Shown one piece after another: positions 6,653-12,712 of a DNA stretch of 25,524 nucleotides; within the stretch, counting starts at the first letter, position 1; each line of letters opens with the position of its first letter. The notes beneath the pieces are model-generated. The model did no database searches. It saw nothing but the letters and a program-made list of their open reading frames with translations, and was not told where the DNA came from. The stretch covers positions 1 to 25,524 of IMG/VR virus record IMGVR_UViG_3300037258_000433, one strand, 5' to 3'. Both the position numbers and the translations under genes were made by a program. This stretch comes from a virus.

Positions 6653-6719
6653 TCTATCCAATTCCGACGTGCGATTCACCAACAAGCCATGGTGCGACGA
6701 CTCGACCACAAGGACAAAA

Positions 6720-7782: not shown

Positions 7783-8622
7783 ATGGCACGCAAGAACCGG
7801 GGCAAAGGCATTGCCCAAAAGCTCGCCGATGCTTTGACTGGCAGCGCCGAGCCCGAAATCAAGCAGAACCTGGAGACCGCCGCCACGTCAGTCGTGGAAG
7901 AGGCTGTCGCCAAGCTCGAAGAGACCGAAGGCACCGAAACGCCAGGACCGCGCGACGAGAAGCCGATCGAGCCCGTTGCTCCCGGCCCGCTGACTGCTTC
8001 GAGCAATGACTTCACGGCGATGCTCGCCGCGATCAGCGTGGAAGACGCCACCGAAATGTCGGCGAAGGCGACTGCCTCCGTTGACGAGCGTGCGTCCTTC
8101 GAGGCTGTGAAGGATTCTTCCAACACGAAGATTCAGGCGACACTGAAGAAGGTGCGCGCGGGGCTCACCAATCTCGATGCGGCCCGCGTCCTGATCGCCA
8201 GCAATGTCGATCCGAACATCTTCAATCGCGAGGTTCACACTGGCTCGCGATACAACGTCTATGCCCTCGGCAAGCTTGTCGATGCCATGAACGCGATTGG
8301 CACCGACGGCAAGAAGGTGACGAACGCCATCAATCTCGCCTGCATGAGGTCGTTGTTCCAGTTCCGGGCCAACGGCGCGCAGTTCACCGGCGAGATGGCA
8401 AAAGCCGCTGCTTCCGACAAGATCCGCGTGTCCGCCTCCATCAGCGCGATGTTGGTGCGTCATACGGTGTCGGCTTCGACGGCGCCGACCCAGGCTTCCA
8501 GCACCATGCAGGCGCTGGAGACGCTCGGGATCGTCAAGCGCTCGGGCAACACCCGCAACCCCAACTTCGACCTGATCGACAGCCCGATCACTGCGCGGTT
8601 GGAACAGGCGCTCGCGGCGTAA
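7783..8622 (+). CDS. hypothetical phage protein, 279 aa (paralogue of the 10660-11256 gene)
   Basis: The ATG follows GAGGAG. Residues 1-20 are basic, about 25-70 are an acidic Glu/Pro-rich linker, and about 100-279 form a helical core. The core aligns with the minus-strand gene at 10660-11256: NTKIQATL versus NTSIQSTL, ASNVDPNIFN versus ASNVAPDFIN, RYNVYA versus RFNVYA, and a shared T-x-AS(T)/TQ(A/S)SS-x-x-ALxx end. I do not recognise the family. The gene has its own promoter-like element, leader inverted repeat and terminator, as a strongly expressed phage gene would. Confidence 0.8.
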   Translation: MARKNRGKGIAQKLADALTGSAEPEIKQNLETAATSVVEEAVAKLEETEGTETPGPRDEKPIEPVAPGPLTASSNDFTAMLAAISVEDATEMSAKATASVDERASFEAVKDSSNTKIQATLKKVRAGLTNLDAARVLIASNVDPNIFNREVHTGSRYNVYALGKLVDAMNAIGTDGKKVTNAINLACMRSLFQFRANGAQFTGEMAKAAASDKIRVSASISAMLVRHTVSASTAPTQASSTMQALETLGIVKRSGNTRNPNFDLIDSPITARLEQALAA

Positions 8623-10564: not shown

Positions 10565-10612
10565 GGTAGTCTCGCTTGCTTGTGTTTCGCCGTTTCGGGC
10601 GTGCGCTCTTTA

Positions 10613-10660
10613 GAGCACAGTGGAGCGCTGCACTTTGTCTGTGCAGCGCTCTCTGTGCTC
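10613..10660 (-). repeat. long near-perfect hairpin after the 10660 gene
   Basis: GAGCACAG (10613-10620) pairs with CTGTGCTC (10653-10660). After a small internal bulge GAGCGCTGCAC pairs with GTGCAGCGCTC, giving 19 bp around a 7-nt loop. The outer end touches the stop codon of the upstream minus-strand gene. No U tract follows on either strand, so it may be an mRNA stabiliser or processing site rather than a simple terminator. Confidence 0.65.
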
Positions 10661-11256
10661 TACTGCGCAACTAGCTCGCGCAGCGCTGTCACTGTGTCGT
10701 TGTCGTTGAGCGTATAAGCGACGTGATTTGCAGTGTCGCGCGTCTCAGTCAGCACGTTGAACACTTGCAGCGCGTTGATGCTGCTCGACGACTGAGTCGA
10801 AGCAGTGTTCGCAGCAACATGCTTTGCGTAGCGTGCGCTCTTGATGATTGCAGCACGCGACTTGTCTTTATGCGTGACTGACATGCTGCACGCTGCTACA
10901 GCGTCAGCATGATTGAGCGTCGTTTCAGCAGTTTTGAGAGCGATAGCAGCGCGCACAATCGCGAGTGTGTAGTGATTCAGCGTCGCGCTTTTCGCAATCG
11001 CTTGTGCGAGATTTGCGACTTTCTCGCTCGCATAGACATTGAAGCGATTCGACGTGCGCTCAGACTTATTGATAAAGTCGGGCGCGACGTTGCTTGCGCA
11101 CATGATCGCGGCGATGGCGTCGCGGTCGAATGTCTTAACGAGCGAGTCGAGTGTCGATTGAATCGACGTGTTCGCGTCGTTTTTGCTCTGCTCGTATGAC
11201 TTACGCGCTGCACATGCGGCGAGCAATTCAGTCTTATATTCGCTTTGCTGTGTCAT
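10660..11256 (-). CDS. GG-free hypothetical protein gene, 198 aa (paralogue of the 7783-8622 gene)
   Basis: I start at the ATG at 11256; an in-frame TTG at 11292 would add 12 residues. The protein aligns with residues 110-279 of the 7783 gene product (ASNVAPDFIN, RFNVYA, TQSSSS). The coding strand has no GG dinucleotide at all and only about six CC by my count, although its GC content is moderate. The protein has no Gly, no Trp and one Pro, exactly the residues whose codons all need GG or CC. The avoidance crosses codon boundaries, so it acts on nucleic acid rather than on protein. A class A operator lies upstream and a long hairpin follows the stop. The family is not recognised. Confidence 0.75.
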   Translation of the reverse strand: MTQQSEYKTELLAACAARKSYEQSKNDANTSIQSTLDSLVKTFDRDAIAAIMCASNVAPDFINKSERTSNRFNVYASEKVANLAQAIAKSATLNHYTLAIVRAAIALKTAETTLNHADAVAACSMSVTHKDKSRAAIIKSARYAKHVAANTASTQSSSSINALQVFNVLTETRDTANHVAYTLNDNDTVTALRELVAQ

Positions 11257-11329
11257 TGTTTTGACTTTCGTTTGCGAGATCGCGTTGTGCAATCTCTATA
11301 AATGACAATACACGCTGCACAATATGGGA

Positions 11330-11347
11330 CAAGTAAAAACTGACTTA
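11330..11347 (-). promoter_or_regulatory. class A operator (copy)
   Basis: CAAGTAAAAACTGACTTA matches the 18-bp inverted repeat TAAGTCA-N4-TGACTTA with two mismatches. It lies 74 nt upstream of the minus-strand gene starting at 11256. Confidence 0.6.
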
Positions 11348-11728
11348 TTATGAGCAATAAAAGTGTTATGTTTAATGACTTTGCGCAATTATCTTAGCTA
11401 TGATGGCGTTGCATAGCTACTGCAATGGGGCGATACATTGTTGCGCTGCTATCGAAGTCCGCGCAAGATTATTACGCGGCGAACCCTATGCCGCCTGAGT
11501 TCTCAGCGTTTTTAATCCCTAGCCTTGGCGCTTAAATGTCTCTTAAACTGCGCATTATCCCGCTTAGTGGCTATCTATACGTTGACGATTGAGCGCCGGC
11601 GTATCTCTATGAGTTGACGCGACCAGGCCCTACCCTAATTATGCGCCTAGGGGCGCCCGAGCGTGATCTGCCAAGTTCCCGAATAAAGACGGGCTATCTC
11701 TTATAAATGTTGCTCAGATGTTCGTCCC

Positions 11729-11785: not shown

Positions 11786-11946
11786 CCGAGAACACGCCCG
11801 CGCGCTCAGCGCTATAACTGAGACGTATCGACGCTCGCGTGGCACAAAATCTTGAAGGGCCTAGGTGTGCTCCGCTCAACGAGATTGGCCGTAGTTCCGT
11901 AAGGTGCGGTCTCACGCGGGCGCCGATCTGTCATTTGGAGAGCGCC

Positions 11947-12258
11947 ATGCGAATGCCCCAGGACTTTGTTGACGCCATTAACGCCGCTGTTCGTGAGATC
12001 AATCCAAACGCCGGCATCATGGTAGACGGCTCGATGACGCTGGGCTCAGACTTTGACGAATGGCTAGGGCCACAGGCGCTCAAGAAGTACGGCTTTGGAC
12101 CTATGCCGGCGGACGCCATAGCCGCGTTCGAGGCGAAGTTTGAAGAGAAGCGCGCCGAGCTGAAGGAAGCGGTTGTCGCCTCTGCGATCGAGGTTGAGAA
12201 GAAAATTATGAGAGGCGAGCTTGGCGACTTTAATTTCGGCGACAGCAACCGCGTCTAA
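11947..12258 (+). CDS. hypothetical protein, 103 aa
   Basis: The ATG at 11947 has TTGGAGAG about 6 nt upstream; the upstream in-frame extension is rejected as non-coding leader. The N-terminal half (about 1-55) is mixed, with an acidic SDFDEWLG loop. The C-terminal part (about 60-92) is a long charged helix (FEAKFEEKRAELKEAVV), likely coiled coil. The family is unknown. Confidence 0.65.
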   Translation: MRMPQDFVDAINAAVREINPNAGIMVDGSMTLGSDFDEWLGPQALKKYGFGPMPADAIAAFEAKFEEKRAELKEAVVASAIEVEKKIMRGELGDFNFGDSNRV

Positions 12259-12271
12259 ATAGGAATCTAAA

Positions 12272-12469
12272 ATGATCTCAGCCGATCAACCGCGAGAAAA
12301 TCCCGTCCTGGTCAAGATCGCCGAGCCTGGCGAGGACGTTGAGCTGAAGGCGATCGCCTACGTTCAGTCTGTGCTCACGTCGCTGCCAGTGGAGAGTCAC
12401 CAGCGAGTGCTGGACTATCTTTACAGCCGGCTACCGAACATTTTCACTTTTGAAGGCCGCCGCGAATAA
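12272..12469 (+). CDS. hypothetical protein, 65 aa
   Basis: The ATG follows AGGAATCTAAA. The protein has a helix-rich C-terminal two-thirds (ELKAIAYVQSVLTSLP, HQRVLDYLYSRL), reminiscent of small phage helical-hairpin proteins. It overlaps the convergent ribbon-helix-helix gene by 26 nt at the 3' ends. Confidence 0.6.
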   Translation: MISADQPRENPVLVKIAEPGEDVELKAIAYVQSVLTSLPVESHQRVLDYLYSRLPNIFTFEGRRE

Positions 12470-12617
12470 GCGCCTTGAGCTGCTTATCGCCGTATTTCTC
12501 CACCCACGTCTTGAATGAGGCTTCGAGCAGTTCTCTCATGCTCATGCCGTTGAGCGTGGCCGCGAGCTTGAAGGCGCGGTGAAATGCTGGCTCGATCTTG
12601 AAATTGAGGTCTTGCAT
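12444..12617 (-). CDS. ribbon-helix-helix-like DNA-binding protein, 57 aa
   Basis: The order is one beta-strand (LNFKI, residues 4-8), helix (PAFHRAFKLAATLNG) and helix (SMRELLEASFKTWVEKYG). It fits the ribbon-helix-helix fold of CopG/Arc/ParG-type regulators, which bind DNA as dimers through the strand. The length suits such a protein. The ribosome-binding site is weak. It is convergent with 12272-12469. No toxin partner is adjacent, so a phage transcription regulator is more likely than an antitoxin (inference). Confidence 0.65.
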   Translation of the reverse strand: MQDLNFKIEPAFHRAFKLAATLNGMSMRELLEASFKTWVEKYGDKQLKALIRGGLQK

Positions 12618-12712
12618 GGCGATCTCGTATCGCGGTTCGGGTCATCACTCCCGACTTAGCCATCGCCTTATGAAGTTCCAGCGACAGACCACGATTAGCG
12701 AAATCGCTCTAT

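Follow-up and report, generated by a model that had tools for sequence, protein, structure and literature searches.

A conserved island of GG and CC exclusion around a predicted winged-helix gene in Rhizobiales phages and phage-plasmids

The window analysed here is the whole stretch of 25,524 nucleotides of IMG/VR virus record IMGVR_UViG_3300037258_000433, in which a block of genes follows the order known from the RHEph10/pLM21S1 group: two winged-helix paralogues, a helicase, a ParB-like protein, a terminase and a portal. RIIA, RIIB and repC were not seen in this 25.5-kb fragment and would fall outside it. The first paralogue (7783-8622, plus strand) encodes 279 residues with ordinary glycine and proline contents, while the second (10660-11256, minus strand) encodes 198 residues with no glycine, no tryptophan and a single proline. 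A previous sequence-only reading had considered them as paralogues, which is borne out by 31% identity (E 2e-16). It had also pointed to a lack of CC on the plus strand around the second gene, and this description is exact. A CC dinucleotide occurs at 10590 and the next one at 11459, leaving a gap of 869 b; elsewhere in the window, no stretch free of CC exceeds 146 b. The coding (minus) strand is consequently free of GG from 10592 to 11458. Inside the gene itself, the coding strand contains no GG and six CC, seen on the plus strand as the six GG (11080, 11081, 11110, 11116, 11124 and 11218) that the earlier reading had estimated at about that number. The plus strand is also devoid of GG from 10622 to 11080 (458 b).

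Such a gap is far beyond chance. The longest run without CC in 300 first-order Markov simulations of the window averaged 155 b and never exceeded 260 b. When the protein was kept fixed and recoded 20,000 times with the codon usage of the window, the gene contained on average 19.2 GG (minimum 7) and 35.9 CC (minimum 13, compared with the six observed). Shuffling its synonymous codons gave a mean of 15.2 GG and never zero; the avoidance thus crosses codon boundaries, as had been proposed. These three tests confirm that the GG/CC depletion in the window is real.

Prediction places a promoter and a probable terminator near the limits of the island. A sigma70-like promoter was predicted by consensus on the minus strand at 11332-11305, with a -35 box TTGTCC (11332-11327), a spacer of 16 and a -10 box TATTGT (11310-11305), which would place the transcription start near 11297. 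The sense CCC found at the predicted -35 is the last CC ahead of the island transcript. At the other end, a nested hairpin (10611-10662, minus strand) is predicted by folding directly 3' of the stop codon, and its inner stem (10623-10651, AGCGCTGCAC/GTGCAGCGCT) contains neither GG nor CC. Sense CC resumes at the foot of this hairpin (10622-10623), which is a probable terminator.

The AlphaFold model of the island protein (mean pLDDT of 90.4) displays a helical N-terminal part followed by a C-terminal winged helix, a domain also carried at the C-terminus of the ordinary paralogue. Residues 93-198 match MarR/ArsR-type winged helices in VIA-align, where the top rows are mostly winged-helix proteins (Z up to 8.9; MepR superposes with an rmsd of 2.0 over 77 residues). 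No significant match was obtained with Foldseek against the PDB, a Pfam scan returned nothing above cut-off, and the best matches among viral structures are unnamed phage proteins. The natural reading of this model is that the island protein is presumably a DNA-binding regulator.

The island is not restricted to the window. It was found at the same place in 33 records of the RHEph10/pLM21S1 group (0.7-2.4 kb), a count that includes L149, L150 and G411 as well as some close relatives and hence does not amount to 33 independent cases. Homologues with normal GG and CC contents would have pointed to a local accident; the opposite was observed, and together with the simulations this conservation rules out both an accident and simple base composition. 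Whole-genome scans revealed exactly one long GG/CC-free island per carrier, located between the ordinary winged-helix gene, which is present in every compared genome of the group, and the helicase/ParA/ParB block. The group consists of Rhizobiales phages and phage-plasmids. Carriers include the cultured Rhizobium phages V1VFA-S, X66, N1_15 and RHEph10, the phage-plasmids pLM21S1, pAMS5a and those of Shinella, R. beringeri and Pararhizobium, and many IMG/VR records. Two other virus records encode relatives of the island protein with ~55% identity to it, and the GG-free stretches around them measure 930 and 1,343 b. In pAMS5a, 1,706 b are free of GG within DNA of 65% GC, and the longest island (2.4 kb) is found in G013. 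Island proteins have diverged to 20-30% identity and are hardly alignable between carrier subgroups (27% identity, E about 0.02-0.09); nearly all of them have neither glycine nor tryptophan, and proline is almost absent. Of 397 genomes searched within the order, two had the family. Members of the group have been described as plasmid-like prophages (PMC4447125; B1VFA and V1VFA-S in PMC12509600), in passages that deal with replication, partition and metabolic genes and make no mention of the island. The GenBank annotation of RHEph10 (JX483881) is misleading at this locus: gp148 (99105-99785) runs antisense to the island gene and gp142 (96170-97060) is out of frame with the ordinary paralogue, the real genes being at ~99195-99764 (minus strand) and ~96324-96890 (plus strand), respectively.

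The exclusion was quantified by pooling dinucleotides of 30 records from 60 nt upstream of the gene to its stop codon. With 11 occurrences, sense GG falls to 0.01 of the expected number, and CC to 0.07. Since CG and GC are raised to 1.7-1.8 of expectation, G and C are not avoided as such; AG (0.97), GA (1.18), CT (1.23) and TG (1.25) are close to or slightly above expectation, and the GC content of the region stays at about 50%. Across codon boundaries, 8 GG were seen against 389 expected from shuffling of the same codons (27 against 228 for CC), which excludes a codon, tRNA or amino-acid effect. These data show that the exclusion acts on nucleotides, independently of codons and of the protein sequence, and that it is conserved.

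Most islands are depleted of GG and CC on both strands, and genes that accept some CC still keep GG out, with GG/CC counts per gene of 2/28 in L105, 0/10 in L104, 0/6 in the window and 0/5 in G001 (the start codons used for RHEph10, L117, L097 and Rber are a few codons off, which leaves the key counts unaffected). In L105 (IMG/VR 3300046474_000274, 11880-12668), only sense GG is banned and CC is far less depleted, so that the exclusion of CC can disappear on its own. Depletion of sense GG only is also seen in stretches neighbouring the island in pLM21S1, RHEph10, pAMS5a, G002 and G013, and the stretch directly upstream of the ordinary paralogue gene is GG-poor as well. Near-zero sense GG with much CC was noted in further short genes or leaders near the island, at 63081-63875 (minus strand) in G002, at 97576-98063 and 98198-98976 (both minus strand) in G013, and at 65739-66225 (plus strand) in pLM21S1.

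Predicted promoters and, where checked, hairpins delimit the ban in other carriers in a similar way. The region from -100 to -40 contains 81 GG and 61 CC, and the 29 predicted core promoters still contain 5 GG and 17 CC, compared with no GG and 6 CC in predicted 5' untranslated regions that total 1,569 nt. Both dinucleotides therefore extend into the -35 box and spacer of the predicted promoters and cease near the predicted start site. The 3' regions of island units fold with energies of ~-27 to -59 kcal/mol into stems without GG or CC, and in the window, L101, L102 and L107, GG/CC resume at the foot of such a hairpin or within ~15 nt of it. Prediction thus supports a ban that begins at about the transcription start, extends to the terminator hairpin and is stricter for the sense strand, and a zone with these limits suggests that the ban follows the transcript. 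These strong GG-free hairpins also contradict an avoidance of structured RNA, one of the causes put forward in the sequence-only reading. Avoidance of Shine-Dalgarno-like sequences, another of them, is on its own too weak to strip every GG from ~1 kb; many island genes keep a purine-rich leader without GG (AGAGAG).

A natural control is provided by the phage-plasmid of Methylobacterium (M.) oryzae (NZ_CP090351), which carries the orthologous gene in the right place and no island. In a tree of five conserved proteins, this plasmid is sister to G013 and nested among carriers, implying that the ban was lost in its lineage. Its gene now displays 3.0 GG and 8.7 CC per 100 nt, a GC3 of 0.90 and still no more than two glycine codons. 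The dinucleotides were regained mainly across codon boundaries and at third positions: 16 of the 18 GG lie across codon boundaries, and 52 of the 53 CC are at codon positions 2-3 or across boundaries. This relaxation shows that the protein does not need the ban and that the ban can be lifted; it is the protein that follows the DNA, having formerly been shaped by the exclusion. A metagenomic fragment (L119) shows a similar relaxation. The island-free genome G014 contains a glycine-free ORF for 98 residues (reverse strand, 1197-1493) with 0 GG and 12 CC, and A. crimeensis, in which no island was seen, carries the ordinary gene as a truncated remnant.

Gene content was then compared using ~70 pAMS5a families present in at least 7 of the 12 other genomes. 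RIIB is the sole family found in all ten other carriers and missing from both island-free genomes (M. oryzae and G014). It was present in each of the 20 carriers tested (pAMS5a, ten other full carriers, eight further ones and G411) and absent from three non-carriers, A. crimeensis being the third. G411 was found through a scan for RIIB alone and turned out to contain a GG-free island of 909 b encoding a glycine-free protein of 198 residues, a small out-of-sample success for the RIIB link. RIIA and a small protein of 93 residues each occur in nine of the ten other carriers, RIIA not being found in V1VFA-S. The pattern of the small protein (75143-75424 in pAMS5a, and relatives) is near that of RIIB, with absences in M. 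oryzae, G014 and G001. Thousands of phages encode RIIB, and no island was seen in two unrelated ones that carry it, Citromicrobium phage vB_CbaS-RXM (100 of 104 kb scanned) and Pseudomonas phage vB_PaP_HN01, which rules it out as a sufficient cause. At most, RIIB is necessary for the island, few independent losses standing behind the correlation.

The RegB family nuclease (PF10715) was found in none of 11 genomes at E <= 1, and when 20-odd conserved proteins of unknown function were scanned against Pfam and PHROG, no RNase and no DNA-modifying enzyme turned up. PADLOC matches on RIIA are confined to its ATPase domain. The tRNAs encoded by the phages vary (Met, Asn, Trp or none). In V1VFA-S (MT778838), an RNA ligase (PF09414) is encoded beside RIIB and an RNA ligase annotated as RtcB-type lies further along (107263-107868 and 112801-114234); the occurrence of such genes for RNA repair in this carrier would agree with RNA cleavage during infection.

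Taken together, these observations suggest that GG-containing messages are exposed to some activity in the infected cell and that the island gene must get through. Our preferred, still tentative reading is that the island message escapes a GG-directed process at the RNA level, most likely an endoribonuclease comparable to RegB of phage T4. The island would be a complete transcription unit whose RNA is selected strictly for zero GG and less strictly for few CC. In the infected or lysogenic cell, the agent may be a sequence-specific endoribonuclease, phage-borne or phage-triggered, resembling RegB with a motif shorter than GGAG. Most messages would be inactivated while the island unit is still expressed, and its product, the small winged-helix paralogue, might then regulate that phase. 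We propose with equal reserve that the process is linked to RIIB and disqualifies transcripts with GG and, less strictly, CC, so that one regulator unit rebuilt from promoter to terminator passes alone. The transcript rather than the DNA is favored as the target because GG and CC are allowed inside promoters but not past the start, sense GG is the stricter part of the ban, and in several neighbouring stretches the depletion concerns sense GG alone. The evasion of a GG/CC reader, proposed from the sequence, hence remains the best-fitting idea with its target moved from DNA cut by a nuclease or CRISPR system to RNA. Two points count against this reading: a purely GG-directed RNase leaves the sense-CC depletion unaccounted for, and no RegB homologue was found in 11 genomes, nor any other GG-cutting RNase among the conserved proteins scanned.

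To our knowledge, no system of this kind has been described, and we found nothing relevant in the open-access literature on GG-dinucleotide avoidance in phages or on glycine-free phage genes. The nearest parallel is T4 RegB, which cuts GGAG/U mainly at Shine-Dalgarno sites of early mRNAs (PMC9409239). As we propose for the island, whose leaders are without GG, a phage-controlled GG-containing motif decides there which messages survive a phase change. However, RegB needs GGAG/U and mainly targets translation initiation regions, whereas the island lacks nearly every GG and most CC over the whole transcript, and none of 11 genomes gave a RegB homologue. Messages without ACA escape the toxin MazF, and a transcript lacking the cleavage motif likewise remains translatable while others are cut; the motif of MazF is nevertheless a different and longer one, and its avoidance is usually engineered or a statistical bias, unlike the total exclusion conserved here in one viral gene. 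We know of no RNA-cutting activity of RIIA or RIIB. In T4, rIIA has been called a counter-defence GHKL ATPase and rIIB a possible transcription factor (PMC7824862); the likeness lies in the presence of RIIB in every island carrier tested, and the difference in its wide occurrence and in the two RIIB phages without an island.

The main rival to an RNA-level process is a transcription block on modified DNA, in which cytosine (or guanine) in CC/GG would be modified by the phage or the host. Modified CC on the template strand (sense GG) would stop RNA polymerase strictly and modified CC on the other strand mildly, the island being the one unit readable by an unadapted polymerase, for instance the first gene expressed after injection. 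We consider this unlikely enough to rank below RNA cleavage, even though it accounts better for the CC depletion and fits the strict loss of sense GG, the weaker loss of sense CC and the coincidence of the zone with the transcribed stretch. Nucleotide-metabolism genes (ThyX, RNR or dUTPase in several phages) and a conserved P-loop kinase-like protein would also suit it. Against it, no DNA-hypermodification enzyme appeared among the scanned conserved proteins and none tracks the island, while core promoters tolerate GG and CC. Moreover, B1VFA and V1VFA-S were sequenced from ordinary Illumina libraries, and no difficulty was reported (PMC12509600).

The remaining alternatives are less likely, in the order given here. 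A group-specific DNA-binding protein, such as the ordinary paralogue, could bind CC/GG half-sites, nucleate at CCATGG palindromes clustered around the island and block transcription wherever GG/CC occur, the island escaping. Both paralogues have a winged helix, and CCATGG sites are concentrated within 8 kb of the island in many genomes (8/8 in the window, 20/33 in G001, 18/27 in G002 and 25/36 in G013). Such a roadblock is nonetheless improbable, as the islands of V1VFA-S and pLM21S1 are perfect although these genomes contain hardly any CCATGG (CCTAGG occurs in V1VFA-S), the strand bias is left unexplained, and a DNA-binding protein needs a longer site than a dinucleotide. Evasion of a DNA-targeting defence (a restriction or nicking enzyme, or a CRISPR system with a GG/CC PAM) agrees with depletion on both strands in most islands. 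We judge it slightly more improbable still, given that it would protect only ~1% of each genome at one invariant locus in hosts ranging from Rhizobium to Methylobacterium, that GG and CC enter the promoter, and that the bias is toward the sense strand, with much CC kept in islands such as that of L105.

Mutational erosion, in which a transcription-coupled mutator (e.g. deamination or oxidation in R-loops) destroys GG on the non-template strand, would yield a sense-biased zone tracking the transcript. It is very unlikely: the product dinucleotides AG, GA, CT and TG are not strongly enriched while GC and CG are, GC content holds at ~50%, and terminator stems remain paired without GG or CC. Finally, a shortage of glycine, tryptophan or proline or of tRNAs with CC/GG anticodons, which the composition of island proteins might evoke, is ruled out for practical purposes by the codon-boundary counts, and the GG-free 5' untranslated regions and terminators and the relaxed M. 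oryzae gene speak against it as well.

If GG-directed RNA cleavage is indeed at work, the island would reveal a previously unseen layer of phage control. The near-total loss of a dinucleotide over a whole transcription unit can be considered as the fingerprint of a sequence-specific activity that has yet to be named, and the sequence reveals what this activity reads (GG, then CC), points to RNA as its most likely target molecule and shows the phages concerned. The cultured members V1VFA-S, B1VFA and RHEph10, together with the M. oryzae plasmid as a natural escapee, make the idea testable. Besides, it may offer a handle on the long-standing question of RIIA/RIIB function, and motif-exclusion islands could serve more generally as a search principle to expose hidden nucleases or modifications.

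Some longer motifs are also unevenly distributed in these genomes. GGTACC does not occur in any compared genome of the group and CTGCAG is missing from the window, G002 and G014, which looks like restriction-site avoidance. CCATGG is found in the window at 6687, 7419, 7523, 8685, 9082, 9744, 9853 and 9875, and its clustering near the island was also noted in RHEph10, Pararhizobium and pAMS5a; it may be recognised by DNA-binding proteins encoded in this region.
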